Below, piece after piece: positions 23,301 through 44,733 of a DNA stretch of 64,000 nt. A program made the position numbers and the translations under genes. Origin of the DNA: Sphaerolaimus hirsutus (taxonomy: Eukaryota; Nematoda; Chromadorea; Monhysterida; Sphaerolaimidae); NCBI GenBank assembly GCA_964036195.1, contig OZ038456.1, positions 27,591,188 through 27,655,187 of the forward strand, read 5' to 3'. Within the stretch, counting starts at the first letter, position 1; each line of letters begins with the position of its first letter. The notes beneath the pieces were generated by a model that saw only the letters and a list, made by a program, of their open reading frames with translations, ran no database searches and was not told the origin of the DNA.

Positions 23301-23358
23301 ACGCTACTCACTGCAGAGTGGTGCAATTTTCAGTGAATTATACCTTTTCTCGGTATGT

Positions 23359-24177: not shown

Positions 24178-24259
24178 ATGTACCATGTATAATGTAAGAA
24201 AGTCCGGTAAAATTTTCTGTTGTTCAGATGATTTTACATTCACTACTATGACATTTTGG

Positions 24260-24478: not shown

Positions 24479-24488
24479 GTTGACACTT

Positions 24489-25259: not shown

Positions 25260-25509
25260 TATACTCCGGTTACTTTACACCTTGCACGCGTGGTTCCCGC
25301 TGGAAGTGTGCCAACTATGGTTAGCGCGTGCGAGTTTCATAAAAAGATGACAAAATTGATGGTTGTTATAATGTTATTCATAAACATATTCACATCGATG
25401 AATTTTTTCATCTTTTTACGGAAATCGCATGACTTAACAATCATTGGCACGCTTCCAACACGAGACATAAATCAGTGCGACGGCAGAGTATCACGTACGT
25501 CGAGTATAC
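25260..25509. mobile_element. TATACTC-family MITE, copy 3
   Basis: TATACTCCGGTTACTTTACA at the left, CACGTACGTCGAGTATA at the right; central ATTCATAAACATATTCACAT. Confidence 0.9.
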
Positions 25510-25705
25510 CAAAAAATGACATCATTCTATCCAGAATCCAAAAATGTTTAGTTTCAAGGAAAAATCAGTTTACAGAGTGAATTTGCACAGGCACACCACA
25601 TATTAAATGATAAATTCGCAACTATATTTCATATTTAACTCCATTTTATGTGCAACACATTGAACATTAATTCCAAAATTGTTAACAACTACATTTTCTT
25701 TTCAG

Positions 25706-25911
25706 TGCCTTCATATATAAACTTTTGCGGTCTATTACTCGATTCGACAGTCTCTGCAATTACACCGAAATTAAAAATTTTAAAAACCTATTTAAAATAT
25801 TATAAAAATTGTACAATGCGAAAATCTCGATCACATTCCAAATCCAAGCACAAATCTCGATTTAAATCCGCAGTTACAGCCACAGTTACAGCTGGCGCAC
25901 TTCAACAGGGT
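25706..25911 (+). CDS. Candidate alternative linker exon
   Basis: A strong pyrimidine tract and acceptor (TTTTCTTTTCAG|TG) precede an open frame ending in CTTCAACAGG|GTGCAG. Its second half is rich in Arg, Ser and Lys (MRKSRSHSKSKHKSRFKSAV), like other linker exons; its first half is AT-rich and unconvincing. The phase fits only if exon 14 ends at 18619 and exon 15 starts at 27620. It may be an alternative exon or chance. Confidence 0.3.
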
Positions 25912-26127
25912 GCAGTTTCTTTTTTCTTCCTTTTTTTGTGAAATCGATGCCATTTGTTTCCTTGATGAAATATTAGCATTTGTTTTTAAAATAAATATTT
26001 AAAAATAAATATGTGTTTATGATAGATCCTTCAGAGGGACGGATAAATAGATAAAACTTTTTATGACTTTTTGATGTTTTTTAGTGGCGAAGTTTCCAAA
26101 TCTAAAACAGCTGAATTTTAATACTAT

Positions 26128-26427
26128 ACCGTATTTCCTCGAAATACCCCCCCCCCCTCGAAATACCCCCCCCCCTCGAAATACCCCCCTCGAAATACCC
26201 CCCCCCCTCGAAATACCCCCCTCAAAATGGGCACTATGAATTTCTGGTCCGGGAAATGCATAACAAACGTTCAAAACACTTACTGTGTTACGTTTCTGAG
26301 AATAAAAATTATTTTTATAAAATTGTATGCTTTAAAATTGTAACAAAATTGCATTTTTCACGTTTTTCTCTCAAAATTTTCACTCTGAAAAAATAAACCC
26401 CCGGGGGGTAATTCGAGGAAATACGGT
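26128..26427. mobile_element. TA-palindrome MITE with reiterated left end
   Basis: The left end repeats CTCGAAATACCCCCC five times before the usual GGGCACTATGAATTTC interior. Confidence 0.9.
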
Positions 26428-26497
26428 ATATTCAATATACCGATTCACTATGATGTATCGTCGCAACCCCGATGTCTTCTGGATTTTTCAAGCCAAG

Positions 26498-26671
26498 GGC
26501 CAGTCCCGCATCCTGTAAAACTTTTTTAAATGTAATGTCCTGTCAAGTAGTGTACATAAAGCTTGGTGAAACAAACAAAGGAAATATTACTGGGTATTTT
26601 ACATATTTCATGACACTTGACATATTTATGTGACACCTTTAGTGCCATTTTAGAGGATGCATGACTGATCC
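26498..26671. mobile_element. GTCCC-family MITE, abutting an introner-type element
   Basis: GGCCAGTCCCGCATCCTGTA and GAGGATGCATGACTGATCC. It touches the element that starts at 26672, with no spacer. Confidence 0.7.
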
Positions 26672-27127
26672 CAGGTGCTAATTACGCATGTGGACAAGTG
26701 ATATGGAAAGTGTTAAGTTGTCAGTAAATTGAATTGGGGTCAGGGGTTTTGTAGATTTGGACCCCCGCGGGGGTTCATATAGATAGTGTAAATCGCTCCT
26801 CCGGAGGGATAGATAGCTGAAGAAAAAAAACTTTTTTTTTTGGGGGGGGGGTCGCGGGGGTTCAATATATAGGCTTTTCCGAGGTATTTATACAGGAAAA
26901 TATATTTATTTATAGAAAAGTGAAAAAGATAGCTTGCGGATTTGGGGGGGGGGTAACCCCTCCCCCAACCCCCCCCCCTACTAAACCCCTGATTGGGGTA
27001 GTGACAAGGTAACTTTTAAAAGTCAAATTTGTTTTACACTTATTTTTGTACTTGTCGCTTGATTTAACACTGACAACATTACTTCCAAATTATTCTTGTC
27101 AATTGTCACATGCGGAATTGGCCCCAG
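26672..27127. mobile_element. Introner-type MITE (CAGGTGC...GGCCCCAG), intronic copy
   Basis: Left CAGGTGCTAATTACGCATGT with GGACAAGTGA; right CACATGCGGAATTGGCCCCAG. Same terminal design as the two element-introns (27696, 44323). Carries a nested hAT-like element. Confidence 0.85.
26741..26991. mobile_element. hAT-like MITE (CAGGGGT type), shortened copy
   Basis: Terminal CAGGGGTTTTG/AAACCCCTG, flanked by ATTGGGGT (26733-26740, 26992-26999). Interior in opposite orientation to 14535. Nested in the preceding element. Confidence 0.92.
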
Positions 27128-27134
27128 TAGACAT

Positions 27135-27554
27135 ACCGTAGTACCTCGAAATACCCCCATGGGGGTTTATTATTTCGCCAGCAAAATTTGAGGGGGGGTT
27201 AATTCGAGGGGGGTTTTATTATTTCGTCAGAAATTTTCGTAAGGATCGTAGTAAACAGTAGGCATTTGCATACCCAAAACAGGTAATAAATGTGTCCAAA
27301 CAGGATATATTTGGACATAAAAACGTAGATAGCTACACAAACTACTCTATGTGTAGCTGCAATGCAAATTAACAGTAATATACATCATGTACATTGCATA
27401 CATGACGTATTCATAATGTACATGACGTACATCATTCCGAAGGGGGGGGTATTTCGAGGGGGGGGTTATTATTTCCCCAGCCCATTTTGAGGGGGGGTTA
27501 ATTCGAGGGGGGGGGGTTTATTCAAGGGGGGGGGTTAATTCGAGGTAATACGGT
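27135..27554. mobile_element. TA-palindrome MITE, 'TTACCTCGAAATACC' subfamily
   Basis: ACCGTAGTACCTCGAAATAC and GGTTAATTCGAGGTAATACGG. It contains the uninterrupted site AGCTACACAAACTACTCTAT, useful as an empty-site comparison for 63309. Confidence 0.9.
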
Positions 27555-27630
27555 AAATACATTTTTGTAAGTTTCCTATTTGAATAAAAGTATATTTGGA
27601 AACATTTTCTACCTCAAAGGTTGCGGTCAG

Positions 27631-27695
27631 CAATTCACCGAACTTTCAAGAAAAGCCAGGGATTCCCTCATAGTCAACAAGACCAAACACACCAG
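27631..27695 (+). CDS. TOGARAM1: TOGARAM1-like exon 15 (linker)
   Basis: Acceptor GCGGTCAG|CAA, donor CACACCAG|GTACTA. It encodes QFTELSRKARDSLIVNKTKH plus T and two bases of an Arg codon. The donor lies in the left terminal repeat of the element that forms the whole next intron. An alternative acceptor at 27619/27620 adds 11 bases in a different phase. Confidence 0.72.
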
Positions 27696-27920
27696 GTACT
27701 AATTTTGCGAGTGAACAAGTGAAAAGGAAAGTTATAAATATAATAAAACAGTTATATTTAAGTTGCAAGTCAAAAGTGATGGATAAACTTGTTAAGTGAT
27801 GGTGTAATTGCCAGTGATACACTTTGCCACTTAGAAGCTTACTTTTCATTCTAATTACAACTTTTTAACTTTACTTACCACTTTTTCTAGTCACTTGTCC
27901 ACTTTTGAAATTGGTCCCAG
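27696..27920 (+). mobile_element. Introner: MITE forming the complete intron 15
   Basis: The intron begins GTACTAATTTTGCGAGTGAA and ends AAATTGGTCCCAG. The outermost 35 bases are imperfect inverted repeats (ACAAGTGAAAAG against CACTTGTCC), and the ends match the family at 26672, 44323 and 37754. Frame and phase continue across it between exons 15 and 16. An element whose termini are the donor and the acceptor fits the definition of an introner. No target duplication is now clear. Confidence 0.85.
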
Positions 27921-28083
27921 ATCAAGATCTTACGAACTCGGCCCAATTTATGAGTGTGACTTCGATTTGGATGAACAAAATGATGCTTTTTTGGCACCGA
28001 AAATCGCCGAAGTCGATCCAGTTAGAAAAATTAGAGATGTTAGAGGTTCGGAGGATACGGAGTTTTGGCTGGATTTGTTTCAG
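27921..28083 (+). CDS. TOGARAM1: TOGARAM1-like exon 16 (acidic linker)
   Basis: The acceptor GGTCCCAG|A lies in the right terminal repeat of the element-intron 27696-27920. AG+A restores Arg, followed by SRSYELGPIYECDFDLDEQN and DAFLAPKIAEVDPVRK, ending WLDLFQ. Donor TTTCAG|GTATTT, phase 0. Acidic and unlike repeat-derived sequence; no domain recognised. Confidence 0.8.
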
Positions 28084-28135
28084 GTATTTTAAAAGATGAG
28101 TCCCAGCGAAAATGATAAAGTAAAAGGGGCTGGAC

Positions 28136-28278
28136 TAGTGATGTAAAGGCACCGGTGCTGGTGCGGTGCCATTGCAATCTTCGGGGGTGCCCTGCCGGTG
28201 CCGGTGACATGTTTTTCAGAATAGCACCGGTGCCGGTGCTGTGCGGTGCCATTTTTCCCGGTGCCTTTAACATCACTA
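28136..28278. mobile_element. hAT-like mini-element (GGTGCCG type)
   Basis: 143 bases. Terminal TAGTGATGTAAAGGCACCGG / GGTGCCTTTAACATCACTA, flanked by GGCTGGAC (28128-28135, 28279-28286). The interior is a run of CACCGGTGC/GCCGGTGC words. Confidence 0.93.
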
Positions 28279-28410
28279 GGCTGGACTGGTCCCTTTACAA
28301 AGATATTACCGTATTTGTGTGAATTAAGTCAGGTGGAAAATTCGGCACCAAAGTCAACCCATAATGCTGACAGTGTAGGGTGAGGAGAAAAATACAATTT
28401 TTATTTTTTG

Positions 28411-28685
28411 GCCGTATTACCTCGAAATACCGCCCCCCTCGAAATACCCCCCCTCGAAATACCCCCCTCAAAATGGGCACTATGAATTTGTGGTCCGGGA
28501 AATGCATGACAGACGTTCAAAACACTTACTGTGTTACGTTAGAACATCGTTTATACCATCTACATCCTTATATAAGGCTGTAAAAACTTATAAATGGTGG
28601 TTATTGTTGCATTTTTCACGTTTTTCTCTCAAAATTTTCACTCTGAAAAAATAAACCCCTGGGGGATAATTCGAGGAAATACGGT
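28411..28685. mobile_element. TA-palindrome MITE
   Basis: GCCGTATTACCTCGAAATAC left, GGATAATTCGAGGAAATACGG right; interior as at 6625. Confidence 0.9.
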
Positions 28686-29206
28686 AGATGGGATATGGTA
28701 GATTTCATAGTAAAGTTTGCTGTCAGTGGACTATCTGTGGAAGTAGAAGTTTGCATAGCCCTTGGACTGCGCGCTATGCATTTTTCTGAACGAAACACTA
28801 CATCATGACGTCTTTGTCAATCGAAAAAAAATTGTTCCAAAAAGAAAAAATGATTTGGAATGCGAAACTTTTTATTGTATGTACACGACTCGACTCCGCC
28901 CTTTTTCTTCCTTAAAATATGTTTCTTTTTGTGGACATGCGTGCATAAGTATCCTGCTGGCTCGTTATCAACTAAAACATAAGTAATTTTGGGTGCATAC
29001 TTTGCTGTCAGCCGAGTAAATGAAAGAATTAGGGCTAGAGTCCAGCACATAGTAAGATATTATGTAAAAAAGATATTTTTAATTATCACATGATTGGTTT
29101 ACACATTCTAATATATTTAGACAGTCTAAATAAAAAAATGTTAAGTCTATTTATCGACATCATTATTTACCGTTTATGTTATTACATTATTGTTGTTATT
29201 ACCGCT

Positions 29207-30180
29207 ACCGTTGCCGACCCCCAGTACCATGTGTAATGAGTATACCCTCTATGTGTAATGAGTATACCTCTATGTGTAATGAGTATACCTCTATGTGTAA
29301 TGAGTATACCTCTATGTGTAATGAGTATACCATCACACATAAGCCGACAACTCAACACACTGTATGAATTGATTGTCGGAAAGTTTATGCAAAGGTTCAT
29401 AAGTTCATCGATTGCAATTTTCATTGCACAATATCATGTTTCTAATGTGAAATTATTTAAATTTACAAAGTGCTGACGTGCAGATAATGTCATAAACAAT
29501 TCTTAAAGAAGCAAGAAAGTATTTTTCTACCAAATCGCAAATCTACCAAAAAATATTTCGATTTCTTGTAAAGCATGCATATGTTGCACAATTTGTCATT
29601 TTCCATGAGTGCCAATGGATTATCTGCCATTTTGCTTTGTCTCCCATTTTCTCCCATTAAGACAACAGTCTTTAATGCTACAAAAACGCTGTAGTGTTTG
29701 AAGATAGTTAAGTTCATGTGAAAGTTCATCGTGTCAATTCTATTTTAACTACTATACTTCCAGCCTAATCGCATCACCAAAAAGTGACAAAATCTATTTA
29801 TATTTTTATCATAATTATAAGTCTATTTATATTTTTCGACCTGGAACATGACATGACCCAGAACGTTTGTCTCAATGAGCATTTTTGTTCTATTAAAGCT
29901 ACTGTTGTCTTAAAGCCTTTTGTCTTAATGACGCACACCCGACGTCATGTGACTGCGTCTCAATATCCGCCAGAAGAATCTTTTGATGGTCCGCTTTTGC
30001 CGCATTATAGGCATGTTATTTGACTAAAAAGATAACCCATTACCACGCGAGTCAATGTGGAATGAGTATACCCTATGTGGAACTAATATACCACTTATTT
30101 TTCTAATGTTGAATGAGTATACTAATTGGTATACTCATTCCACGGTATACTTGTGTGGGGTATACTCATGCCATGCAGCC
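29207..30180. repeat. GAGTATACC repeat region, probable palindromic element
   Basis: A 21-bp unit (TGTGTAATGAGTATACCTCT) repeats five times at 29230-29333. Inverted relatives (GGTATACTCATTCCAC) close the region at 30138-30175. Between them, AAGACAACAGTCTTTAATGC (29661) mirrors 29895-29915. The short ORF at 29866-30023 ends YPPEESFDGPLLPHYR but lacks a donor. Confidence 0.6.
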
Positions 30181-30905
30181 GTAAATATTCCTTCATATTC
30201 TTCATTTTTATATTTTCCAATGACAACGTCATTTTTCCTCTTAATACAATTTAAACAAAGATAAAAATATTTATTTTATCGTGTCGAATCACTGGCACTC
30301 CCATCAAATTAACCCATTCTATTTGTGGTTAGCGTTCCAAAAATCTGGTGAGATTTATATATTTAAATATAAGAAAATAAATAAAAAATTAGATTCATTT
30401 ACATTTTAACCCGGTTTTTCCAGAGATTTTTTATTGTACTTTATAATATGAAAATAAAAGATACAATTTATACAAAACCGCATTTATATTTATTTATATT
30501 ATATCGCTTTTTTCTGAGAGATTAAATTATTGTGTATTCTATTTTAAGAGATTTTCTGAGATTATATTTAATTATAAATATTTAATTTCTGAATATATTT
30601 ATTTTCTGAAGATATTTATTTTCTGAAGATATTTATTTTCTGAAAAGCACCTATTTTTTCGAACGCTATCTGCGGTTCCATTTTCAATACTCTATAAACT
30701 TTCATTTCTGCCATATGCTGCCAATTGCTGCCAATTTCATTTTATGGAGCAATAAATATTTGTTATTGAAAATAAGATTTTATTTTTAGGAAATGAATTT
30801 TCATTTTTGCTGCTAAGGTTGTCAAGAACGCCTATTGAAAAACAAACAGTGTTTTTCTTCTACACAAAATGGAACTTTAATTTTGGAAAGCATGACACAT
30901 GAAAT

Positions 30906-31513
30906 TGAGGCGTCCGATTCTAAAAGTCGACAAGTCCAAAATATGAAACTTTTGAGTTAGGCGCGGAAACGTCATCTGGGGCTACTGCCGCACATTTTTC
31001 ATAATTTTCCATAAATTTTTTGACCTCACATGCCCATATGGCAAAGTGCCAAATTTGACATTTTTCAGAAAAATGCAAAAAAAATTGGGCAAGAGTCGAC
31101 AAGTTCACATAGTTTTGGGCTAAAAGTCGACAAGTCCACCTTCTGCAGCCTTTTTTATGGGAAAAAAACGCAAGAAATGTGATTAGTCATGGACACCGAA
31201 TTCTAAAAGTCGACAAGTCCATAAATTTCCCATAAGGCAGGCGCGATGCGGGCGGGAACAAAAATGTCGACAAGTACATTTTCCTCCCCAAAACAGTTTT
31301 GTTCTGTACGAGTAGAATTTTATAGACACCCCGTTTTTCACATATACGTTGAGAGCAGGGGCTGAAAATTTGACACTTTATTGTTAACATTTGGAACTTA
31401 ATGTTGAGCACGAGAGAGCCCCATTGGACCTGGAACTGGAAATGAAACTTAACATGCGATTTACTAAAAACCGCATTTTGTGGACTTGTCGACTTTTAGA
31501 ATTAGACGCCTCA
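30906..31513. mobile_element. GAGGCGTC-family MITE, copy 2
   Basis: TGAGGCGTCCGATTCTAAAA and its complement; same interior order as 556-1199. Confidence 0.9.
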
Positions 31514-32263
31514 ATTGTATATATGGATGAAACAAAAACATTTCACGCATGTGGTTTTACTTTTTATTTTTGCGAATTGAAAAAGGGCACATCTTGACAA
31601 ATGATCAAAACGTTGTATCAAAAAGTGATAAGTAAGTAAAGTGATGAAAATGTTCTTATTAAACTGGTCAGTAAAGTATACAAAATGTTCTAAGTGTTAC
31701 GTAAAGTTAGAAATGTAAATTTATTCTTGTCACTTGATTTGATACTTCCAAACTTTCTTATCTCTCATCAAGGGTTGGCACTTGATTTTTTAACTGATTT
31801 TTTTTTAAATCAAAGGGTGAAAACTGATTTTCATTTAAAAAAATCAAAATGCAAAATTTCTGGTAGACTTGCACTAGGTATTTTGCAATTTTTTGGCGCG
31901 CACACACGCAATTTCTCATACACATTACCATTGGTGGTGTTTTCGTGGGTTTTGGGGCATTTTTAGTGTAAAAGCTTCCATTTATTCATGTTACCGTGTA
32001 ATAATAAGCTGAAATATGCTAGTGTAGTATATAATATCCAGCCAAAATGCTCCCATATACTTCTATAGTGTGTAACATCACTGTCAATGTATGTGTCTTC
32101 TCTTACAATTTTATTTAAGCACTATTCCATGCTGAACTTCGCTTGAAGTCACGAACATTCGACAAAAGGCGACATACTTAATAAGTTGACATAAAATGGA
32201 TATTTTTGACAGAAATCACTGGTTTTAATGCTATCCCATGACTCCACAGTCATAATATGACCA

Positions 32264-32713
32264 CAGGGCCGTATCCAGGGGGGGGGGGGCGGGGGGGGCT
32301 GCAGCCCCCCCCCCCCTCCCGGGGTGAGACCTAAGAAGTCCCGGAAAAGGCAATTTTTCCTATACATTTTTCGTTGTCTCTTAAAAATTTTTGCGCGCAA
32401 GCGCGCAATTTCTTCCCCATACATTGTATTTTTAGCGGATCAGTCCTTGTAAACAAATATCCTTGAAAATGAACACATTTTTGCGACTTTCGCCGCATGT
32501 GTATGCATATTAAAATCTATATAAAGCGGTTCCTGGCGCTGGCGCCAACGCCAATAGCGCCATGGCGTGGCGCCATGGTATGGCGCCAGCGCCAAAACGC
32601 TTTTCCGTCCCTATATAGGGAAAAAATTAAGGGGGGGGGCTGAGCCCCCCCCGCTCGCCGGCCCCCGTAAACAAGCAGCCCCCCCCCGCTCAAAAATCCT
32701 GGATACGTCCCTG
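32264..32713. mobile_element. hAT-like MITE (CAGGGCCGTATCCAGG)
   Basis: Flanked by TATGACCA (32256-32263, 32714-32721). Ends CAGGGCCGTATCC / GGATACGTCCCTG; G/C runs, and a GGCGCC-rich centre at 32532-32590. Confidence 0.95.
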
Positions 32714-32731
32714 TATGACCACAATAGACGT

Positions 32732-32982
32732 ATACTCCGGTTACTTTACACCTTGCACGTGTGGTTCCCGCTGGAAGTGTGCCAACGATGGTTAACGCGT
32801 CCGAGTTTCATAAAAAGATGAAAAAATTGATTGTTGTTATAATGTTATTCATTAACATATTCAAATCGATGAATTTTTTTTCATATTTTCACAGAAATCG
32901 CATGATTTAATAACCATTGGCACGCTTCCAACACGAGACATAAAACAGTGCGAAGGCAGAGTATCACGTACGCCGAGTACAA
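32732..32982. mobile_element. TATACTC-family MITE, copy 4
   Basis: TATACTCCGGTTACTTTACA left, CACGTACGCCGAGTA right; very close to the copy at 25260. Confidence 0.9.
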
Positions 32983-33323
32983 CAATACATTGTCTGACAC
33001 TTAACATACACATATTTTGTCTTTACCACCATTTTGGACGATTTGCAAAAAAATCAATTTTTGAAAGTGATTTTTTTTTAAAGTCAAATCGTTTAAAAAT
33101 TTTTTTTTCAAACCCTACTCTCATCACTTTTGTGTAACTGTGAAAACTTTTTCAACTTTGTTCTGCTTCATATAAGCCAGGCATAAACTGATAAGTGTTT
33201 ACCAATCTATTTGTCACTTGACTCATTGCTCCTAACTGTACTGGTCACTTGAATTATCAAATTTAATTTTTCTCAGTTTAATCATCACTTTTCTTGTCAC
33301 TACTCCACTAGCGAAATTTGGTT

Positions 33324-33750
33324 ACCGTATTTCCTCGAAATACCCCCCATCGAAATACCCCCCTCGTTTGACCCCCCTCGTTTGACCCCCCCCCCCCTCT
33401 CGAGACCACTATGAAACAATCACCCCCCCTCGAAATACCCCCCCCCCAGATTGAGTGTAAAGAGAACGTACATGACAAAAACTGCAGTTTGTGTTCTGCG
33501 TAGTGCAGAACACACGTTAAAACAATGTCGGAATCACGTGAGAGCAGTGTTTATACCATCTACGTACTAATATTAGTGTACAGGTGTCTATACATGTCAG
33601 TTACTGATGCATTTTTCTACCCCAGCGCACATCACGAACAACGATTCTGTACTACCATTTCAAAAAATTTCTGGCGAAATAATAACCCCCCCTCCTCTTG
33701 GGAGCACTATGAAAAATCACCCCCCGGGGGGTATTTCGAGAAAATACGGT
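33324..33750. mobile_element. TA-palindrome MITE, long form
   Basis: Interior shares GAGTGTAAAGAGAACGTACA with 10088. Ends GTATTTCGAGAAAATACGGT. Confidence 0.92.
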
Positions 33751-34025
33751 AGATATCTCAAGTGTGTTTGAAAACAAATTTATCAGTTGTGGACATTTAG
33801 GCCCATGTAATGAGCTAATGTTAGCTGTGAGTGGCCACAATAACCTCAATTAAACCTCACAAACCCATAAAATTATAATATCCGTGTGACATCATTATTC
33901 CATACTTCTGAATTAAATATATTTGTGCATAAAGTGGAATACTTAATAATCATTCATGGTGCCACTTTGCCGGCTTGGTACCGTTGCTTAACAACAAAAA
34001 TATACAAAAATCTGGTATATGGAAC

Positions 34026-34471
34026 TAGGGTTCAAACGGGATTGACTTTTCGGGATCGGGATCGGGATTGGTGTTTTGACATTTTGGGATCGGGATCGGG
34101 ATTGGCCGGGATTGGGGTCACGAGATCGGGATTGGCACTTTTTCGGGATCGGGATTGGGGTCTTGGGATAGAGATTTTGGCCAATGTTCTGGCATCCACA
34201 GTTGTTCATAAAGGTCTCAAAACACTGTTGGATGCCAGAAAAGTGGCATAAAATGAACGCTGGGGATTTGCGTTCACATTTTTGCATGCAAAAATGTCAT
34301 TTTTTCACTTTTGATAATTTCCACTAATTTTTCCGGGATCGGGATCCCGGACTATGGAGTATCTCGCGATCGGGATCGGGATTTGAAAATTTTCGGGATC
34401 GGGATCGGTACTGCTAAATCCCGGAATTTCACGGGATCCGGGATCGGGATCGGGATCCCGTTTGAACCCTA
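34026..34471. mobile_element. hAT-like MITE (CGGGATCGGGAT type), copy 1
   Basis: Terminal TAGGGTTCAAACGGGAT / ATCCCGTTTGAACCCTA, flanked by TATGGAAC (34018-34025, 34472-34479). The interior is mostly GGGATC simple repeat, with a unique core near 34160-34320. Confidence 0.96.
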
Positions 34472-34596
34472 TATGGAACTGGGATATAGGCACAGATATG
34501 TCAGTGACAGGTGGCACACAAGGTTGTTTTTATTTTTTATTATTGTTTTCTGAAATGGACCAGGGGTGAAATTCATTTTGTTCGATTGAATTTTAG

Positions 34597-34629
34597 CTGG
34601 CAGATTTCCAAGGCGGTGATGTGGTTCCG
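34597..34629 (+). CDS. Candidate in-frame 33-base microexon
   Basis: Acceptor TTGAATTTTAG|CTG and donor GTTCCG|GTGGAA flank 11 codons (LADFQGGDVVP). Phase 0 on both sides fits between exons 16 and 17. A palindromic MITE begins immediately downstream. Length and phase are the only evidence, so it may be chance. Confidence 0.3.
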
Positions 34630-34633
34630 GTGG

Positions 34634-34821
34634 AAGTCCCGCACCCGCACCTTGTGAATTGAAAAGTAAAGTGCCGAATGTCATGTAAAATGTCATACAA
34701 ATTTGTCAAATGCAATGCAAAATGTCAAAAGTTCGTTATTAAAATCTTCTTTTTATTTCTATTTATGACATTTTACATGACATTTGAGACTTGACATTAC
34801 ACTTCACAGGGTGCGGCACTG
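34634..34821. mobile_element. GTCCC-family MITE
   Basis: GTCCCGCACCCGCACCTTGT left, CACAGGGTGCGGCACTGCC right; arms with AATGTCATGTAAAATGTCAT. Confidence 0.8.
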
Positions 34822-34891
34822 CCGCACTCAAATTGTCACCACTGGATAGGTATTATCGGTAGTGGTTGAGGGGGCTAACCCTCCCCCAGTG

Positions 34892-35185
34892 CAGGGGCGT
34901 AGCCGGGATTTTTGAGCGGGGGGGCGATTGTATACGGAGCCCGGCGAACGGGGGGGGGCGGCGCCCCCCCCCTAAAATTTGACCCCTGCGGTAAAGGAAT
35001 GGCGCCTTGGCGCCAGCGCCATTCGTAGGCGCCGCGCCATGGCGCCATTGGCGCTGGCAATGGCGCCAAATACCGATGTACATGTATGTATTTTACATGT
35101 ATATACAGTGACCGGGACAGATTTTGGGTGCTTTTTGTCCCAAACTATAGGTATCAAGTCCCCCGCCCCCCTGGCTACGTCCTTG
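34892..35185. mobile_element. hAT-like MITE (CAGGGGCGTAGCC)
   Basis: CAGGGGCGTAGCCGGGA left, CCCCTGGCTACGTCCTTG right. Flanks CCCCAGTG and CCCCAAAG match 6 of 8. Internal GGCGCC-rich palindrome. Confidence 0.85.
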
Positions 35186-35453
35186 CCCCAAAGTCTTAAT
35201 GCCTGTAAATACATACACTGTTTGTTATCTGATATTAGAGTTTAGTATGTCAACTTGATTTTGAGTTGACAAGAATAGTGAGTAGTTGACAAGAGGAAAG
35301 GACAAACATCGGTAACTAAAATGCATGATGTCAACTAAGGAAAAGCGCACGCAATCTCAGTTGACAAAATCACTCACAATGCTGTCAACTAGTCTGTGTC
35401 TGGTCAATTGGGGACCCCCGCAGACAACAAACAAATTAGCCATATCTGCCCCA
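35186..35453. other. CTAG-family fragment
   Basis: TGTCAACTTGATTTTGAGTT and CTGTCAACTAGTCTGTGTCT suggest remains of a CTAG-family element, without clear ends. Confidence 0.4.
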
Positions 35454-35883
35454 CAAGGACGTAGCCAGGGGGGGGGGCGGGGGGGTGGCCGCCCCCCCCT
35501 TCCCGGGCCGGACCAAAAAATGTGCCAGAAATGGCACTTTCAGACGATTTTGTCGACAGTTTGAAAAAAATTTGCGCGCAAGCGCGCATTTTCCCCTCAC
35601 AACATATATTTTCGGCTGACCGGTTGCCGCGGCCTCAAAGCCAGTGAAAATGGACTTAATTCCTGTCCATGTCGCTCTATATGTCTGTAAAATACAGACA
35701 TATACCGATGTTTTGGCGCCAATGCCAACGCCAGTGGCGCCATGGCGTGGCGCCTACGAATGGCGCCATTACCTTACTACAGGGGTAAAATTTTAGGGGG
35801 GGGGGGCGCCGCCCCCCCCGTTCGCCGGGCTCCGTATACAATCCGCCCCCCCCCCCCGCTCAAAAATCCTGGCTACGTCCGTG
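35454..35883. mobile_element. hAT-like MITE (CAAGGACGTAGCCAGG)
   Basis: Flanked by CTGCCCCA (35446-35453, 35884-35891). Interior is related in inverted orientation to 34892-35185 (CCGTATACAATC, GGCGCCTACGAATGGCGCC). Confidence 0.94.
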
Positions 35884-36310
35884 CTGCCCCAAATGTGTAC
35901 CGGTTTAGCTGTGTCATGTGAATCTAAAGGGCTGTTTTGATGACTGTGGGTTATGAGTGGTTTCATTGTTCCTCTTATGCATTCGCTTTGTTCACTGCCT
36001 TTGATAGTTTTTTTTGCCCAGCGATTGTGTTTTGGTGCCGTTTTTGCTAATTGAAAGTTCGTGTGGGATGTATAGAAAATTTTGGTTCCGCGTTCGAACT
36101 ATTTTTGGCAAAGTATAAACTCATGACTGGAACCCCAAAAAATCAAAACACAAACGAACGTTTCAAAATCACTCGAACGTTTCAAACATATGAATATGGC
36201 AGCCTTTTTTTTCGTAACCAGTGTTTAGTGATGAAAAAGAGACCGTCATACTGATTTTTGAACGATTTGTTGTTCGAACGCAGTTCTAGTTATGAGTTCA
36301 TATTTACTGT

Positions 36311-36565
36311 TGCTTGAATAATTTCCCCTTTGAAAAATTCCCCCTCTTGAATATTCCCCCTGTTCGAGCACATTTCGAAAATTTGTTTCGTCCAATTTGA
36401 ACAAAAATTCATGTTTTTTTTGTGAATAAAGCACATTTCGTGAAAGTTCTTGATGACAACAATTTTTGAAAATTGTGACGAAATAAAAAATGGCTCCCCT
36501 TGAATAATGCTCCCTCGACTAGTCCCTCTCTCAAAAAAAAATCTGACGAAATAACGATTCCACAG
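36311..36565. mobile_element. Degenerate TA-palindrome element
   Basis: TTGCTTGAATAATTTCCCCT left, blocks of CCCTCTTGAATATTCCCCC, and a right half with AATAACGATTCC. Ends no longer sharp. Confidence 0.5.
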
Positions 36566-36707
36566 GGGATATATTCTAGCAAGTAGGGTAATTTGGAAAA
36601 CTCATAAAAACGGTTTTTGAACGGATTTAAGTTCACCTGAATGAGGTGTCTGTCAACTAGTGTTTAGAGATAGAGACTTGTGGAGGAAAACATATATGCG
36701 TTCAAAG

Positions 36708-37585
36708 CAGGGGTCTCGAATGGGGGGGGGGTTACCCCCCCCCCCAAACCGCCCAGCTATCTATCTATCCCGGAGGCAAAATTTTGTGCTACTACCCCCT
36801 CAACCCCCCCCCCCCCCCCAATCGCTCAGCTATCTACCTATCTGGAGCGATTTTTGAGAAACTGTACCCCAATTTTCGCTCAGAATCGCTATTTTTCATA
36901 CTTTTTTTATAGATTTTCACCTACAAAATGCTAGTTTTTGTTCCTATTTACCGTATTTCCTCGAAATACCCCCCGGGGGGTGATTCTTTCATAGTGGTCC
37001 CGAGAGGGGGGGGGGGTAAACGAGGGGGGGGGGGTATTATTTCACAAGAAAATTTTTCAAATCCCAGTACGAAATTGTCGTCTGAAACGTACGCAGACGT
37101 CAAAAAATACAACAAAAACCGCCATTTATAAGGTTATGTATTTAGACTAATATTAGTGTGTAGATGGTATAAACACTGTTCTAACGTGATTATGACATTG
37201 TTTTAACGTGTGTTCTGCACTACGCAGAACACAAACTGCAGTATTTGTCATGTACGTTCTCTTTACACTCAATCTCGGGGGGTATTTCGAGGGGGGGGGG
37301 TGATTGGTTCATAGTGGTCTCGAGAGGGGGGGGGGGGGTATTTCGAGGAAATACGGTACCTATTTTTAGTACTATATGCTCTTGTATACCCATTTGGAGC
37401 CTTTTTTCACCTACTTTTAGCGATTTTTCTCCCTTTTCTTCCTTCTACAACCACCACAACCCCCCCCCCCCCAACCCCACCGAACCCCCCCCACTTTTTT
37501 TCCAGCTATCTATCTATCCCGAAGGCCGCTCAGCTATCTATCCAACCACTCGGAGGGTCAAAATTCAAGTTTTCCAAATTTTTCG
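36708..37585. mobile_element. hAT-like MITE (CAGGGGTCTC type), split copy
   Basis: Begins CAGGGGTCTCGAATGG; the body matches 55544-56006. Interrupted by a TA-palindrome at 36950. The right terminus after GGAGGGTCAAAATTCAAG is lost. Confidence 0.82.
36950..37357. mobile_element. TA-palindrome MITE with empty-site proof of TA duplication
   Basis: Sits in a copy of the hAT element whose intact relative reads TTCCTATTTACCTATTTT at 55779. Here it is TTCCTATTTA, then the element, then TACCTATTTTT: a TA dinucleotide duplicated. Confidence 0.93.
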
Positions 37586-37753
37586 AAATCTTAATAGAAA
37601 ACCTTTGTGTGTAGGCACTATATGTTTGTTACACCATTCAAAAATTATAGCGAACAATTACTAAATGACAAATCATCAAATTATGGTAACATTACCCGCA
37701 AAGCATGCCGTCTGCTGATTACGGTACCATTATTAGTAAATATGAATACAGAT

Positions 37754-37991
37754 CAGGTGCCAGTTCAGCAAAATATGAAGTGAAATGGCAAAGGCGAAGT
37801 GAAATGGCAAAGGCCACGTGAAATGGCAAAGGCGAAGTGAAATGGCAAGTGGATTGGCGAAAGCGAAGAGAAATTATTTTATTTTTTATTTTTTTACTTC
37901 GCTTTTGTCAATTCACTTGACGTTTCACTTCGCCTTTGCGCTTTTACTTTGCCTTTGCCATTTCATTTATCATTTTGCTGAACTGGCCTCA
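37754..37991. mobile_element. Introner-type MITE, CAGGTGCCAGTTCAGC copy
   Basis: CAGGTGCCAGTTCAGCAAAA left, TTTTGCTGAACTGGCCTCA right. Several GCGAAGTGAAATGGCAAAG units sit inside the left arm. Confidence 0.75.
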
Positions 37992-38108
37992 AGGCTCACG
38001 CTAAATAGTGTGATATTTATCATATTGTGATGAATAAAGTCACAAATTAAAGGTCAATTAAAGTTATCCTTAGTGATGTGGTCAGAAAAAATGAAATTTT
38101 CGGTATCT

Positions 38109-38381
38109 ACCGTATTTCCTCGAAATACCCCCCCCCCCCCTCAAAATACCCCCCCCCCCCCTCGAAATATCCCCCTCAAAATGGGCACTATGAATTTGTG
38201 GTCCGGGAAATGCATAACAGACGTTCAAAACACTTACTGTGTTACGTTAGAACATTTATACCATCTACATCCTTATAAAAAGCTGCAAAAACTTATAAAT
38301 GGTGGTTATTGTTGCATTTTTCTCTCATAATTGTTACTCTGAAAAAATAAACCCCCGGGGGGTAATTCGAGGAAATACGGT
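38109..38381. mobile_element. TA-palindrome MITE
   Basis: Left end repeated three times, interior as at 6625, ends GGTAATTCGAGGAAATACGGT. Confidence 0.92.
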
Positions 38382-38640
38382 ATTCAGATGGGATATGGTA
38401 GATTTCATTATTAATTGTGCGGTAACTAGAATATAAGCATATCATATCTATGCCCTAGTCACATGTTTGATGATAAACCATTAATAAACGTGATGAATTA
38501 ATCGGAACTGATAGCAGAACTTGTTTATTACAGTTTTAATTTCTGTTTTCATGTTGTCATTTGTATTTAGGATATCTGGATTAATAACCGAGAAATTAAG
38601 TGCTTACACTAATAGCTGTTATATTTATCTTATCGACTGA

Positions 38641-38881
38641 TATACTCGGCGTACGTGATACTCTGCCCTCGCACTGATTTATGTCTCGTGTTGGAAGCGT
38701 GCCAATGATTATTAAATCATGCGATTTCCGTAAAGATATGAAAAAAATTTATCGATGTGAATATGTTTGTGAATAACATTAATCAATCAATTTTGTCATC
38801 TTTTTATGAAACTCGGACGCGTTAACCATCGTTGGCACACTTCCAGCGGGAACCACGCGTGCAGGGTGTAAAGTAACCGGA
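38641..38881. mobile_element. TATACTC-family MITE, copy 5
   Basis: TATACTCGGCGTACGTGATA left; GTGTAAAGTAACCGGAG right. Inverted relative to the copy at 25260. Confidence 0.88.
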
Positions 38882-38980
38882 GTTTTTTTTTTATACATAA
38901 TTTGCTTAGCCGTGGAATTCGCCATATCCCAGCTAAATAAGATTTTTTTCAATTTTTATGCATTGCGGTAGCGTGAACCC

Positions 38981-39135
38981 TAGGGCTCGAACTCGACTCG
39001 ACTCGACTCGACTCGAGACTCGAGTTTTTTGCCTGACTCGACTCGAATTTTCACTGACTCGCCCGACTCGACCGAAAAAATTTTTGGGGTTGCGACTCGA
39101 ACTCGAGTTCCAAAAAAATCGAGTTTCGAGCCCTA
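38981..39135. mobile_element. hAT-like mini-element (CGACTCGACTCG type)
   Basis: 155 bases. TAGGGCTCGAACTCGACTCG left, CGAGTTTCGAGCCCTA right. Flanks GTGAACCC and GTGAAGCC match 7 of 8. Interior is ACTCG simple repeat. Confidence 0.9.
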
Positions 39136-39300
39136 GTGAAGCCACTTCACTGTGATTCCAGACAGTTGACACTCGCAGCGCTTCCCGAACCGTGAAAGTA
39201 TGCCGACATGTTTTTGTAAGCGCGCTTCACGAAAATTCATCGTGAAGTTGGTGAAGTGTGAGGCGGGAATTTCACCACACTTCACGGATTACTCCCATTT
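39136..39300. repeat. CACTTCACG-type palindromic repeat
   Basis: GTGAAGCCACTTCACTGTGA and CACTTCACGGATTACTCCCA; related words at 41760-42080, 49261-49490 and 58800-59160. Confidence 0.55.
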
Positions 39301-39831
39301 TGCTGTGTCTGATTTATTCCTATTTCGTGTAGGTTCTGTTTAAAGAGATTGGTAGTTAAATCACAAAGTGTTAAGAAGAAATTTTACTGGATTCGAAAGA
39401 TTATATTCATGCATCATTTTAACACACCACCAAAATGCCATGAATGAAGTGTCATGTATTTCTTCTAATAGAAGAGCCCCGTTCTTTTTTTCCGTCAATT
39501 TTTTTACCTGCCGTTCAATTTTTTTTTACAAATTTTCCACACATTTATCATTTGAACGTAGCTTCAGTTTTAACTAAACACGAGCAACACTTGAATATCA
39601 AGGCATCAATTGAGCATTTGGTATCAATATTTGATTGCTTTGAACGTTCTCGTGATATATAGTTTTTTATTGTTTGTGTTTTGGCAATATGCCAGCGAAA
39701 TTTCTATTATTTTCGTTAGTGCAAAAACGTGCCAAATCCGCCGTTCCATTGTAGGTGCCATTCTATTGGAAGAACTACCGTAGATGCGTTTATCGAAATA
39801 CACAAACTTCCATCCGTTACAGTAAACATTT

Positions 39832-41182
39832 ACTGTATTTCCTCGATTTACCCCCCCCCTTGAAGTACCCCCCCTCGAAATACCCCCCGTCTGGAATTAT
39901 GTACATCATGTATGCAATGTATTAGGTTGTAAACTAATGAAGTGTCTTTTTTCGATTTCATACAAATATACATTTGTGCATCCCACATTCTTTTGTACGT
40001 TGACCGATTTTGATGCCATTCGAGTATGTTGTGGTTTGGGGTCTGGGCTATGAAGAAATGTTTTTGTTTCCTCGAATAATCCCCCAGTCCCGAGATAAGG
40101 GGGGTCAATAAAAAATGGTCATTTTGCATGGCCGATCTACACATTCACTTTGAACCTTACTCACTCAGCCATTTCTGGGCCAATTTGGATCGTTCGACAC
40201 TTAAAATGATCAGCACAACCAGTAGATTCCATTAGATTCCATTCGGATTAGTTATGTCTAAATTACGTATGCCGATTTGACCCAGTTTTTAAACACCAAA
40301 AATAAATTTTTCTAAACATGCTATTATATACTTTAGACAATGGGGATTCATATACCAAAAAAATTATTTCAATATCCCTTTCCAATCAAAAGTAATAGAA
40401 CTTTAAACTTCCGCCTCGAATACATGTAAATAACTAATCAAGAACGATGAATACAGATAACCTGAGCATAAAAATGAAACTTACAGGTTTTTCTGATCAT
40501 TTTAAGTGTTCATTGGTGGAAATTGGCTGAGAAATGGCCGAGATATGGATTTCTGAAGTCACATGCATTTGCTCGTCATGCAGATTTTTCTATTTATTGT
40601 TGGGAGGCGAATGTTTAAAGTGATATAACTTTTGACTGGAGAGAGATATTGAAATAATTTTTGGGCCAGATTTATTCTTTTTGTCTATAGTATATGATAG
40701 CAACTTCAAAAAATCGTCTTGAAAAATCATAATTACGATTATTTTTCATGTTCAAAAACCGGGTCAAATCGGCATACGGAATTAAGACATCACTAACTCG
40801 ACCACAAAAATTGAATCTGCGGATTGTCCTGGTTATTTTAAGTGTTGAACGATCCGAATCGGCCCTGAAATGGCTGAGTTATTAAGCTTCAAAGTCAATG
40901 TGCATATTGGCCACGTAAAATGACCACCTTTTTATAGACCCCCCTTATCTCGGGACTGGGGGATTATTTGAGCAAACAAAAACATTTCAAAACAAAATCG
41001 GTCAACGTACAACACAATGGAAAGCACAAATGTATATTTGTATGAGATGGCGAAAAAAGACACTTCATTAGTTTACAACCTAATACATGACATTGGTCGC
41101 TGTTTGCAGTGTAATACCCCCCCCCTCAAAATTTCCACTCTGAAAAAATAAACCCCCTGGGGGTATTTCGAGGAAATACGGT
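39832..41182. mobile_element. Nested palindromes in a TA-palindrome element, about 1.35 kb
   Basis: Outer TA-palindrome ends at 39832 and 41182. Inside, TGTATTAGGTTGTAAACTAA (39919) mirrors 41070-41090, and TTTCCTCGAATAATCCCCCA (40067) mirrors 40950-40980. Within that, CATTTCTGGGCCAATTTGGA pairs with the 40500-40550 and 40850 regions. No coding capacity seen. Confidence 0.75.
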
Positions 41183-41800
41183 ATATATTCACATTGGGTG
41201 CGATGAAGTTTGCGTCACAAAATAAGCTGCTTAGCAACAATTTGCCCTTTTACCCATGATCGATTTCATACTTGAGTGCTTTTCGTCAAGTTTTCTTTCG
41301 ATTGTTTTCATCTAGACTTGTGGAAAAATTGTTATTGTATGTTATTGTAGGGATTTTTAGAAAAATTTACGGATGTGAAAGTGTGCCAATGTTTAATTTT
41401 TTTGTGTTTTAAATGTCTGGAAAGTTTATCTTATTTTATTTTGGTCATCTATTCAAACTGATTCGAAATTCACCTCTTTATTATTTTTTCAGCTTCCAGA
41501 ATTTTTATCTTATTTGCACATAAATTATTGCTCATTAAATTTATAAAAATATTTGTAATATATCTGGCACACCTGTTACCTCAACGATACCCAATACCTA
41601 AATACTTTTATCAAATAAAAATTCATTCCTATGGCTGCGTTAATTTCACCGCGGACTCCCATCAATATCAGGCAGACAAAGTGATGGAAAAAAGTGCGGA
41701 AAGTTATGGCGCTGACCATTTTGACACCACTCAATTTACCTATTACAGCAAATAATGTGCTCGTGAAGTGCACTGAACTGGTCTGAAGTGCCCCTTGTGC

Positions 41801-41940
41801 TCACACTTCAGAGCCTGATCACGCCTGATCACCAGGCACTTCACCACCCGTGATCACACTTCAGAGCCTGATCACGCCTGATCACCAGGCACTTCACCAC
41901 CCGTGATCACACTTCAGAGCCTGATCACGTCTGATCACCG
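41801..41940. repeat. 53-bp tandem repeat
   Basis: TCACACTTCAGAGCCTGATC starts at 41801, 41854 and 41907; the third unit is partial. Contains GATCACGCCTGATCACC. Confidence 0.93.
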
Positions 41941-42106
41941 TTTGAATGCACTTCACCGACACTTCACAGATTTGTTTACTAAATTGTTTACAGAAATAAA
42001 AAATCAGAAATTCGTGAAGTGCGTTGAAGTGCCTGCGAGCGTCTGCGTGAAGGCACTTCACGGCAGATCACCAGTGCATTTTTTGCTGTGTATTGATGTA
42101 CATGTT

Positions 42107-42444
42107 ACCGTATTTGCTCGAATAATCCCCCTGGGGGATTATTATTTCGTCAGACTATTTTGAGGGGGGACTAATCGAGGGGGGGAATTATTCGAGGGGG
42201 GGAATTATTATTTCGTCAACATTTTCAACCATGTTTCTATCAACTCATTTGATGAAATCTGCTTTATTCACACAAAAACGTGCCATTTTTGTTTAAATTG
42301 GGCACACTAAATTGAGCAAATTCTTTAAGGGGGGGGGATTATTCGAGGGGGGGAATTATTATTTTCCCACTTGTCTTACAGGGGGGGGGGGATTATTCGA
42401 GGGGGGGAATTATTCAAGGGGGGTACTATTCAAGCAAATACGGT
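42107..42444. mobile_element. TA-palindrome MITE, 'TTGCTCGAATAAT' subfamily
   Basis: Close to 23877-24177, including CATTTTTGTTTAAATTGGGC inside. Ends 44 bases before exon 17. Confidence 0.92.
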
Positions 42445-42488
42445 AAATATAAAATTTTCGAATTTGATAATATTTTTCATTTTTACAG

Positions 42489-42566
42489 AAATTATTTTCT
42501 GTCATCCAACGACAAACCACAAGAAAAAAAGAAACAATAGAGATATCAAATCCTTCGAAAATCCGA
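42489..42566 (+). CDS. TOGARAM1: TOGARAM1-like exon 17 (linker, 3' boundary unclear)
   Basis: Strong acceptor TTTTTACAG|AAA. In phase 0 (expected after exon 16) it gives KLFSVIQRQTTRKKETIEIS and NPSKIR, then a stop at 42567. No GT dinucleotide occurs between 42541 and 42630, so a normal donor is lacking. Joining after ATCCG (42565) to 42629 would restore the frame but needs an AT-AG or other non-canonical intron of 63 bases. Confidence 0.5.
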
Positions 42567-42628
42567 TAAATGGGGAAAAATGGCGCTCGCGACATAACTT
42601 TCCGCACTTTTTCCCACCGCTATTCCAG

Positions 42629-42836
42629 GCGCGTTCCCACGGGGCGGAAAAGTGCTCGCAGACCAAAATCTAAAACTCGCTTGTCTATAGTCAATGCACT
42701 TTTGACACCCGGGACGGCCCCCTTTCGGGGTAGCTCCAGTTTTCATGGTGGATTGGCGCCATTTTATGGCGCTGGCACCAGTGGCTATGGCGCCAAACAG
42801 TGGAATTATGGTAGATTTGTTACAGAAGTTACAGAA
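42629..42836 (+). CDS. TOGARAM1: TOGARAM1-like exon 18 (linker)
   Basis: Acceptor GCTATTCCAG|G. The frame reads RVPTGRKSARRPKSKTRLSI, then a Gly/Ser/Tyr-rich part with GYGAKQWNYGRFVTEVTE. Donor GAA|GTTTGA at 42837 leaves phase 0, as exon 19 needs; another in-phase donor is at 42828. The middle overlaps GGCGCC-type words found in repeats elsewhere, so part of the exon may be exapted repeat. Confidence 0.55.
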
Positions 42837-43049
42837 GTTTGATCGATTGAGATACCCTATTTTATTTTGATGAATAAAATGTCACGTAAATGTTGCAGCC
42901 ATAATGAGACAGTGGTAGCCATAATGAGACAATTTAACGGGATGAGAAAATATCAAACTTTGGTTTGCTATTCAAAGAGGATATGCGAAATTACATTTAA
43001 TGTAAAGTGACATTACTTACTGTCTCAATATTTACGAAATGAACCATAT

Positions 43050-43972
43050 TTACACTAGTTGACAAGTACATCAAATGTCAACTGGTTCCCATCCCAATTC
43101 AAAGCTTGCTCACGCACGAGCCGACGAACGACGTTCAAATGATAAAGTGTTGAATCATGTTGCAAATTAAGCTATAGTGTTGAAATAAATATTGTGGTAT
43201 GTGCAATGTACAAGTCAGCCATGAAGTATATACCGCATATCCTCGAATAAGGTCCCTCTTGAATAACTCACCCCAGGGGTCTCCAGGGGGCACAATATAT
43301 AGCCTTTTTCAATGTTAAGACGGCAGAAAGAGAAAAAAATCGCTAATAATCAGTTAAAAGTAGCCAAAAGTAGGTATAAAATGGCTGAAAATAGGTATAT
43401 AACCATGCATATAGCTGGAAAGCACAATTTTGAAGGTGAAAAACCATCAAAAGGTGCGAAAATTAGTGATTTTGAGCAAAAATTGGGGCAAAATTTTTCA
43501 AAAACCACTCCAGATAGATAGAATGTTGAGCGATGTGGGGGGGGGGGTCTTTGGGGGTAGTAGCCAAAAAATTTGCCTCGGGATAGATAGATAGCTGGCC
43601 GATTTGGGGGGGGCAGCCCCCCCCCCAGGAGACCCCTGACTCACCCTGTTGGACGAGTGATAAAAAATAACTCCCCTCTGGAATAACCTCACACTTGGAT
43701 AACTCTCCCTCTGTGAAGGTGGAAAAGATGTTGGGTAAATTTAAAGACAATCAATGAAGTCACACCAAATAAAGCTACGCCAGGGCTGCAAATATTTACA
43801 GTGGTGTGTGTGAAATGAAAAATACAAAATAATATTAGAATACGACAGCGACAACATATACCTAATGCAATTCTGAATCAAAGTACCACTCTTGAATAAT
43901 ACTCGTGAGCAAGCTTCGAATTGGGATGGGAACCAGTTGACATTTGGTGTTCTTGTCAACTAGTGTGTGCAG
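43050..43972. mobile_element. CTAG-family MITE that supplies the acceptor of exon 19
   Basis: ACACTAGTTGACAAGTACAT left, TTGTCAACTAGTGTGTGCAG right; arms contain CTGGTTCCCATCCCAATTCA. The intron ends exactly in the right terminus. It encloses a degenerate TA-palindrome (about 43235-43700) and a hAT-like element (43274). Confidence 0.82.
43274..43638. mobile_element. hAT-like MITE (CAGGGGTCTCC type), nested
   Basis: Flanked by ACTCACCC (43266-43273, 43639-43646). Inverted relative to 14535. Confidence 0.95.
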
Positions 43973-44322
43973 GGCCAATGTACCAAACCAAGTACCCAGT
44001 GCTTAAAAATTTCTCGAAATTCAGACGATCCAAGTGCCAGACCTACACCATACAAGAATCAAACGCAAAGTCAAAGGAAAAAGTCATTTCTGCAGAGCAC
44101 GTCGAAAAGTTTCGATAATTTCGACTACAACCGAAGAAAAGTTAAATCTATATCTAGTACGCCTACATACAACTCAAAATCGAGATCCCATACGCCTACT
44201 TTCAATGGAAAATCTAGATCCCATACGCCAATGCTGAATGTGAGACAAATTAGGAGCAGACAGGCAAGAAATGATTATAAGATTTATGCTGGCAAAAATG
44301 GTCTTTTGTCAACTGGCCCCAG
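43973..44322 (+). CDS. TOGARAM1: TOGARAM1-like exon 19 (longest linker exon)
   Basis: 350 bases, 116 open codons plus AG. The peptide is Ser/Thr/Lys/Arg/Gln-rich with short internal repeats: KSISSTPTYNSKSRSHTPTF then NGKSRSHTPMLN. The SRSHTP pair suggests proline-directed phosphorylation sites in a disordered linker. The acceptor GTGTGTGCAG|GGC is the right end of a CTAG-family MITE. The donor GGCCCCAG|GTGCCA abuts the element that forms the next intron. The frame is well supported by its length. Confidence 0.82.
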
Positions 44323-44651
44323 GTGCCATTTTCTGAAGTAAACAAGTGAAAATTCAAGTCAATTTAAGTGGAAAGTAAAATAATAAGTGGTAAGCGATAA
44401 GTGAATATGAAAGAAAATATTGTGCAAAATGTTCCTGGGAATATTTCCTGGAACGGTGCCATATCAACGATGATTTGCAACGTAACGTATCCAAAAAGAT
44501 CGCTCAAAAATAAAATTTACCAGCCTACTGTTTGTAAAGTGAATTATGTATGATCATAACTTATGGGTTGACTTGCCACTTAAATATGAACTTACTGACC
44601 ACTTTAAAATGACTTGTATTTTCACTTGTCCACTCGTGAAAATGGCCCCAG
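44323..44651 (+). mobile_element. Introner: MITE forming the complete intron 19
   Basis: Begins GTGCCATTTTCTGAAGTAAA and ends CACTCGTGAAAATGGCCCCAG. The termini are imperfect inverted repeats: CAGGTGCCATTTTC against CTGGGGCCATTTTC, then AACAAGTG/GACAAGTG. Exons 19 and 20 join in frame across it (AG+A). Both flanks read GGCCCCAG, so one repeat of that octamer may be a target duplication or part of the terminal repeat. Confidence 0.87.
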
Positions 44652-44733
44652 AGCTTATAGCGCAAGTTTCTCAAGAAGTCACCCGAATATTTCAAATGCC
44701 AGTGCTGCTAGTTATCCAGGATTTGATAGATGG
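44652..44733 (+). CDS. TOGARAM1: TOGARAM1-like exon 20 (linker)
   Basis: Acceptor TGGCCCCAG|A lies in the right terminal repeat of the element-intron 44323-44651. AG+A gives Arg, then AYSASFSRSHPNISNASAAS and YPGFDRW. Donor TGG|GTTTGT, phase 0. The continuity of frame and Ser-rich style across the element is the evidence that the element is spliced out. Confidence 0.78.

Follow-up and report, generated by a model that had tools for sequence, protein, structure and literature searches.

How does a coding exon come to hold an intron that is made of little else than a transposon? The question was raised by the intron at 44323-44651 of the window, by which we mean the whole stretch of 64,000 nucleotides that was analysed. 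An original prediction had read this intron as a copy of a MITE family (introner B) and had described a second intron of the same gene, introner A, as having the same terminal design. Here we consider the boundaries of the element, its relatives in the assembly and the genes in which they lie.

The element and its host gene

The intron does begin with GTGCCATTTTC at 44323, which is also the start of the element, and it ends with GAAAATGGCCCCAG at 44638-44651, as had been claimed. Inverted repeats were found at both of its ends (46 nt, 83% identity by the repeat tool), and apart from the duplicated CAG there was no intron sequence outside the element. When many copies of the family were aligned, the 5′ terminus coincided exactly with the donor. 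The 3′ terminus lay 3 nt inside the acceptor, and these 3 nt were the duplicated CAG. With the family termini at the splice sites, the main reading of the original prediction, an intron made of a MITE family, was supported. The donor GTGCC presumably fits the usual donor consensus weakly beyond +3. Coordinates are given in Table 1.

Table 1. Features of the intron, its surroundings and two further family copies, in positions of the window.
Feature	Position	Strand	Remark
Transposon-derived element, 326 bp, GTGCC...GGCCC	44323..44648	+	First two bases would be the GT donor
Predicted intron, 329 nt, GT-AG, phase 2; element plus right target CAG	44323..44651	+	
3-bp target duplication CAG, left copy	44320..44322	+	Would remain as the final three bases of the upstream exon
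Target duplication CAG, right copy	44649..44651	+	Would supply the AG acceptor
5′ terminal inverted repeat	44323..44367	+	Arm 44322-44367 by the repeat tool
3′ terminal inverted repeat	44604..44648	-	Arm 44604-44649 by the repeat tool
CHE-12/TOGARAM1-like gene (part; outer limits approximate)	3360..44733	+	Protein homology of the approximate exon chain
Upstream coding exon	44096..44322	+	Start guessed from the acceptor TTTCTGCAG ending at 44095
Downstream coding exon	44652..44733	+	End guessed from the donor GTTTGT at 44734
Introner A, a further family copy in the CHE-12-like gene	27696..27917	+	CAG at 27693-27695 and 27918-27920
Copy in apparently non-coding sequence	26675..27124	+	CAG at 26672-26674 and 27125-27127

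The prediction had also proposed GGCCCCAG, present on both flanks, as the duplicated target. The motif is indeed there twice; as a target it did not hold, for only CAG is duplicated. As an 8-bp target duplication, GGCCCCAG was found before just one of 26 copies. The run of equal bases preceding CAG was 6 at the 44323 copy, against 0-3 in the other 25 copies. The repeat of GGCCCCAG thus appears peculiar to the 44323 copy and may have arisen by chance. In addition, AACTGGCCCCAG (44311-44322) and AAATGGCCCCAG (44640-44651) were equal at 11 of 12 bases, although the duplicated target is CAG alone; either chance or an older event could account for this likeness.

Judged by protein homology, the host gene is a CHE-12/TOGARAM1-like cilia gene. 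The approximate exon chain from the window matched 22 proteins, which include CHE-12 of C. brenneri and three TOGARAM1 proteins from frogs, and the best match was a TOG-domain protein of Plectus sambesii (E = 9.5e-89, 37% over 56% of the query). Because of this gene and of TTAGGC telomere repeats, the host was taken to be a nematode. The repeats were present at two of eight contig ends (C3 start and C9 end); five ends were without them and one reads N. For the exons flanking both introners, comparison with the 22 proteins detected no homology (best E = 2.8 and 0.08). These exons seem to encode a linker, and homology therefore cannot fix the junction of the 44323 copy.

Other evidence bears on this junction. 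Translation without splicing would run into a stop within a few codons of the intron. When every AG between -300 and +60 relative to the precise site was considered as acceptor, an open frame with both anchor peptides was kept by the CAG at 44651 alone. The second haplotype (contig C137, L002) has the same intron, with 28 differences in 319 aligned bases and a further 11 gap columns. Over 43979-44322, the haplotypes differed at 8 of 344 positions. Three of these differences lie in 44060-44322, and all three are synonymous and at the third codon position. In 44652-44732 there was a single difference, a synonymous AGA/AGG (both Arg) in the very codon that is split by the intron. Of the five differences at 44002-44058, one was at a third codon position. 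As the upstream differences are mostly off third positions, the exon start was placed near 44096 rather than farther upstream, which would leave 44002-44058 outside the exon; this start is a guess. We infer splicing of 44323-44651 from the open frame, the synonymous haplotype differences at the junction and the homology at other copies described below. No empty allele or sister locus of the site was found, the one alternative allele containing the intron. Similarly, the joined flanks of 26 copies revealed no paralogous empty site among the sampled loci.

Elsewhere in the window, a long tandem array with units of about 80 bp occupies 20640-22640 and is open in one frame as NVKCHAKYQRWCKM...; fragments like it are also present in other sampled loci. 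At 4600-5220 lies a minisatellite whose repeat unit is about 33 bp, or 11 residues; several of its frames are open. A search of the window against Rfam at gathering thresholds gave no match.

The transposon family and its targets

A 24-letter end pattern, with up to 3 mismatches, had 1,019 matches in the whole 348 Mb assembly (509 forward, 510 reverse), and its reversed control had none on either strand. By these matches, the intron at 44323-44651 is a copy of a large genome-wide family of inverted-repeat transposons. With up to 6 mismatches, 59 terminal-repeat instances were gathered in 35 loci. Removal of the allele L002, one twice-counted locus and one near-copy left 54 instances in 32 loci. 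The three bases just outside the repeat were CTG in 21 of them, CAG in 20 and others in 13. The repeat itself started with GT in 26, GG in 15 and others in 13.

A terminal-repeat profile was built from the 54 instances, leaving out the L002 allele, duplicate loci and flanking bases. In a search of the window it found both ends of the 44323 copy (E = 6e-4 and 8e-9) and both ends of introner A (9e-5 and 3e-8), which bears out the claim that the two introners have like ends. It also found both ends of a copy at 26675-27124 (1e-8 and 0.003), so that the non-exonic copy claimed at 26672 was confirmed with these limits. An earlier profile, which included the allele L002 and flanking bases, had given stronger E values. 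The other claimed copy, at 37754, reached E = 0.58 with the earlier profile and was without a match at E up to 1 with the later one. It was dropped as not significant.

The earlier profile was run over the window and the sampled loci (75 sequences with matches) and gave 52 paired copies. Besides the allele L002, 29 of the 52 had C[A/T]G on both sides; in 22 it was missing on at least one side. The middle base of the target was concordant in 26 of the 29 pairs (binomial P = 8e-6), and the flanking bases in this profile favour C.G at the ends, not agreement of the middle base. Two of the three discordant pairs (L053 and L054) look like one duplicated locus. Given this concordance, the duplicated target comprises three bases, CWG. 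When the 26 concordant copies, which we call TSD-complete, were oriented by CAG, the left end started with GT in 20; at the right end, GT would be read in 6.

The interiors were mostly not common among copies, as only 24 of 1,843 pairwise alignments touched both interiors. A subfamily with ends GGCAGTTCC or GCCAGTTCC (L015 1776-2020, L077 741-931 and L032 1016-1248) shares interior sequence at 78-88%, unlike most copies. Within about 80 kb of contig C14 (L059-L062, ~22.99-23.07 Mb) there were six end matches, five of them identical; the flanks are similar, and a local duplication is probable.

The CWG target recalls the NuwaI group of the PHIS superfamily, related to PIF/Harbinger. According to the accessible text of PMC4482050, this group is defined by CWG target duplications, has inverted repeats of 12-61 bp that usually start with GGG, and is found in animals; the survey of Han et al. 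(2015) is described there as covering 16 species, none of them a nematode. Our family is like NuwaI in its CWG duplication (26 of 29 concordant) and in an inverted-repeat length within 12-61 bp. It differs in that the family end after CAG is mostly GTG, the other end being GGG. Most likely, it is a non-autonomous family of the NuwaI group, related to PIF/Harbinger. An autonomous relative would carry a DDE transposase and a Myb/SANT ORF between such ends.

The genome had at least 163 DDE_Tnp_4 matches (150 of 306 candidates were scored). Two such loci, L087 and L088, were considered as the parent transposon and rejected, as their ends do not match the family. Inside the paired elements there was no convincing similarity to a transposase (best E = 0.15). 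Thus, no transposase with the family ends was found in L087, L088 or the paired elements. More than 100 DDE_Tnp_4 matches among those listed had nearly equal scores, mostly with 3-5 in-frame stops (one copy, L087, was read). The stops could reflect an intron inside the domain, and these loci perhaps belong to a different, young family of the PIF/Harbinger type.

Family copies in other genes

Flanks of family copies were joined through one CAG, and the joined protein was then searched in Pfam and PDB. With its copy removed, IFT122 matched PDB at E = 1e-21 with a gapless junction. The bestrophin copy (L038) gave a Pfam E of 7.8e-19 and a gapless PDB match from Met1 (E = 7e-5), and the FAT-domain copy (L010), presumably in a TOR-type kinase, a Pfam E of 3.6e-7. 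The KCNQ copy matched PDB at E = 0.0022, the alignment having a gap of two residues close to the junction; its Pfam E of 0.0044 was below the cut-off. Pfam values below the curated cut-off were also obtained for a kinase-domain copy, which we take to be CDK-like (2e-4), a ligand-gated-channel copy (2.3e-4) and a globin copy (6.5e-4). PDB searches with the ligand-gated-channel and globin fragments gave no match. In these seven CAG-target copies and in both CHE-12 introns, the element terminus and target duplication coincide with donor and acceptor. An eighth CAG-target copy lies in a C2H2 zinc finger gene (L013). Its best Pfam match was in the finger adjoining the junction finger, and the junction was placed by the motif spacing C-x2-C-x12-H-x4-H, which the junction finger keeps after removal. 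Sequence of this family therefore forms predicted introns at several unrelated sites: two lie in the CHE-12-like gene, and in other genes, too, copies appear to have become introns.

These genes were reached in two ways. The longest frame on the sense (CAG) strand of each of the 26 TSD-complete copies, or a part of it, was submitted to Pfam, and five of the 26 had accepted families (L013, L023, L040, L063 and L007). The bestrophin, Kv-type channel (L044) and GPCR (L024) copies were missed by the longest-frame rule and were chosen by eye. Their frames were among ten submitted to Pfam together, of which three had an accepted family. L010, L049 and L105 were also chosen by eye and were submitted to Pfam separately. 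Some weak Pfam matches below the cut-off were taken as chance, including one to Prion in L064 (E = 0.0034).

The strand was fixed by homology for 11 copies, eight reading CAG and three CTG, a biased ratio since a subset of frames was scanned and several copies were chosen by eye. Ten of the 11 bear GT at a single end, which in nine of the ten faces the 5′ side of the gene (P = 0.02). The exception is L010, in which the GT end is on the 3′ side of the gene. The L010 copy (1328-1529) begins with GCGCC within its FAT-domain gene and, from this start, is likely a GC-AG intron.

At the three copies in conserved exons that read CTG on the coding strand, L024, L044 and a WD40 gene (L049), splice sites and termini do not coincide. 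There is no AG at a CTG duplication, and exact GT-AG removal is therefore impossible in all three. In all three, homology runs through the junction. After exact removal, the GPCR of L024 aligned without gaps to vasopressin receptors in the two alignments examined (E = 5e-6); its Pfam E of 4.9e-5 was below the cut-off. The channel of L044, which we take to be of the Kv type, matched Ion_trans (Pfam E = 1.4e-9). L049 matched WD40 at E = 6e-6, and its right target copy reads CCG. In all three, the end on the 5′ side of the gene is GT. An AG at -9 of the precise site in L044 would add three codons in frame, and one at -84 in L024 would add 28 codons; in L049, no such AG keeps both anchor peptides. 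A further CTG-strand copy, L056, was judged coding by eye and had no Pfam match. It shows six exon differences from a second insertion-bearing copy (L057), five of them synonymous by hand count; an AG located by eye 21 nt farther downstream would also leave its frame intact. L019 and L096 were set aside as CTG-strand cases, as an ordinary acceptor is possible 25 or 36 nt downstream.

The CTG copies may be damaged alleles, or may use other AGs or non-AG acceptors. We think it unlikely that introns also form at CTG targets through a non-AG 3′ site (GT-TG or similar), which would make the element spliceable in either target orientation. For 36 human genes, TG acceptors are reported as alternatives (PMC2374985). 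Such an acceptor would not account for L049, whose right copy is CCG.

Origin of the introns and comparison with known introners

Could the element have entered an intron that was already there, with its ends at the splice sites by chance? The copy at 26675-27124, in apparently non-coding sequence, shows that the family also inserts outside exons. However, such a coincidence would have to recur in both CHE-12 introns and in the seven homology-backed CAG copies, and nothing intronic lies beyond the element. We consider this origin very improbable. Still less credit is given to the idea that the intron spread through RNA, by reverse splicing or otherwise, which has been proposed for fungal introner-like elements. 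Such a route would suit copies that have common ends and mostly different interiors, but the inverted repeats, the 3-bp target duplication, the non-exonic copy and the use of both CAG and CTG targets are signs of a DNA transposon.

It is also conceivable that the insertion is unspliced or poorly spliced and lies within a damaged gene copy. Damaging insertions may well exist in this assembly, considering that L049 is without a protein-restoring AG and that L024 has a distant one. At the 44323 site, however, the insertion is kept in both haplotypes, and the four exon differences beyond 44060 are all at third positions. A damaged copy seems very improbable here.

The explanation that we prefer, at a probability of about 0.86, is that a non-autonomous inverted-repeat DNA transposon inserted at a CAG of a coding exon, duplicated this CAG and became an intron. 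A transposon with terminal inverted repeats would have landed in a CAG of the CHE-12/TOGARAM1-like gene, and the insertion would have left CAG on both sides of the element. In the pre-mRNA, the left junction would read CAG/GT and be used as donor. The right junction, ending in CAG, would be used as acceptor, its AG coming from the duplicated target. Splicing would then take out the element and one CAG, and the original coding sequence would be restored exactly. The identical arrangement at other copies would yield introns in several further genes. The donor would need GG to become GT at one end, and we suppose that the family originated by such a change.

In RNA folding, the intron at 44323-44651 gave a foldback of -105 kcal/mol (z = -6.3). 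For 22 of the 26 TSD-complete copies (up to 700 nt, the four longer ones being left out), z ranged from -2.6 to -12.3 with 20 shuffles each, and the outermost 60 nt at either end formed 23-49 pairs with each other. As modelled, the foldback would bring donor and acceptor together. Paired repeats in the RNA might therefore join the two splice sites spatially, and may help splicing.

In C. elegans, Tc1 insertions in exons are removed from mRNA through splicing at irregular sites near their ends. The present case is similar in that a nematode DNA transposon within an exon is removed from mRNA, here by prediction. It differs from the irregular sites of Tc1 in that terminus and duplication form a regular GT-AG pair.

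Introners, in the sections of Gozashti et al. (2022; PMC9860276) accessible to us, are described as non-autonomous transposons that have inverted repeats, duplicate their target and bring along one splice site, the other being furnished by the target. Some families carry the 5′ site and obtain the 3′ site from the duplication. Our element resembles these in having its own GT donor and an acceptor from the target duplication. In contrast, the example of this arrangement in the same source, from Chrysochromulina, has 4-bp duplications and lacks inverted repeats, whereas here we found a 3-bp CAG and repeats of ~45 nt. Within animals and land plants, that survey reports introners in two groups only, both of them animals, and the string 'nematod' is absent from its main text. 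Among the matches listed in a search of the open-access literature, no paper title concerned introners in nematodes. A paper on intron gain in nematodes (PMC9169325) mentions introners in just general terms in the text available. Introners with a carried 5′ site are thus an already known type; what would be new is a 3-bp CAG target with inverted repeats of ~45 nt in a nematode.

Introners are a leading explanation of bursts of new introns. If our reading is true, the mechanism is compact and testable: a change from GG to GT in the terminus, together with a CAG target, makes an intron. The 3-bp target CAG would supply the end of the exon and the acceptor alike. As the family inserts in coding exons at both CAG and CTG, its copies would allow the filter that splicing imposes on new insertions to be measured.
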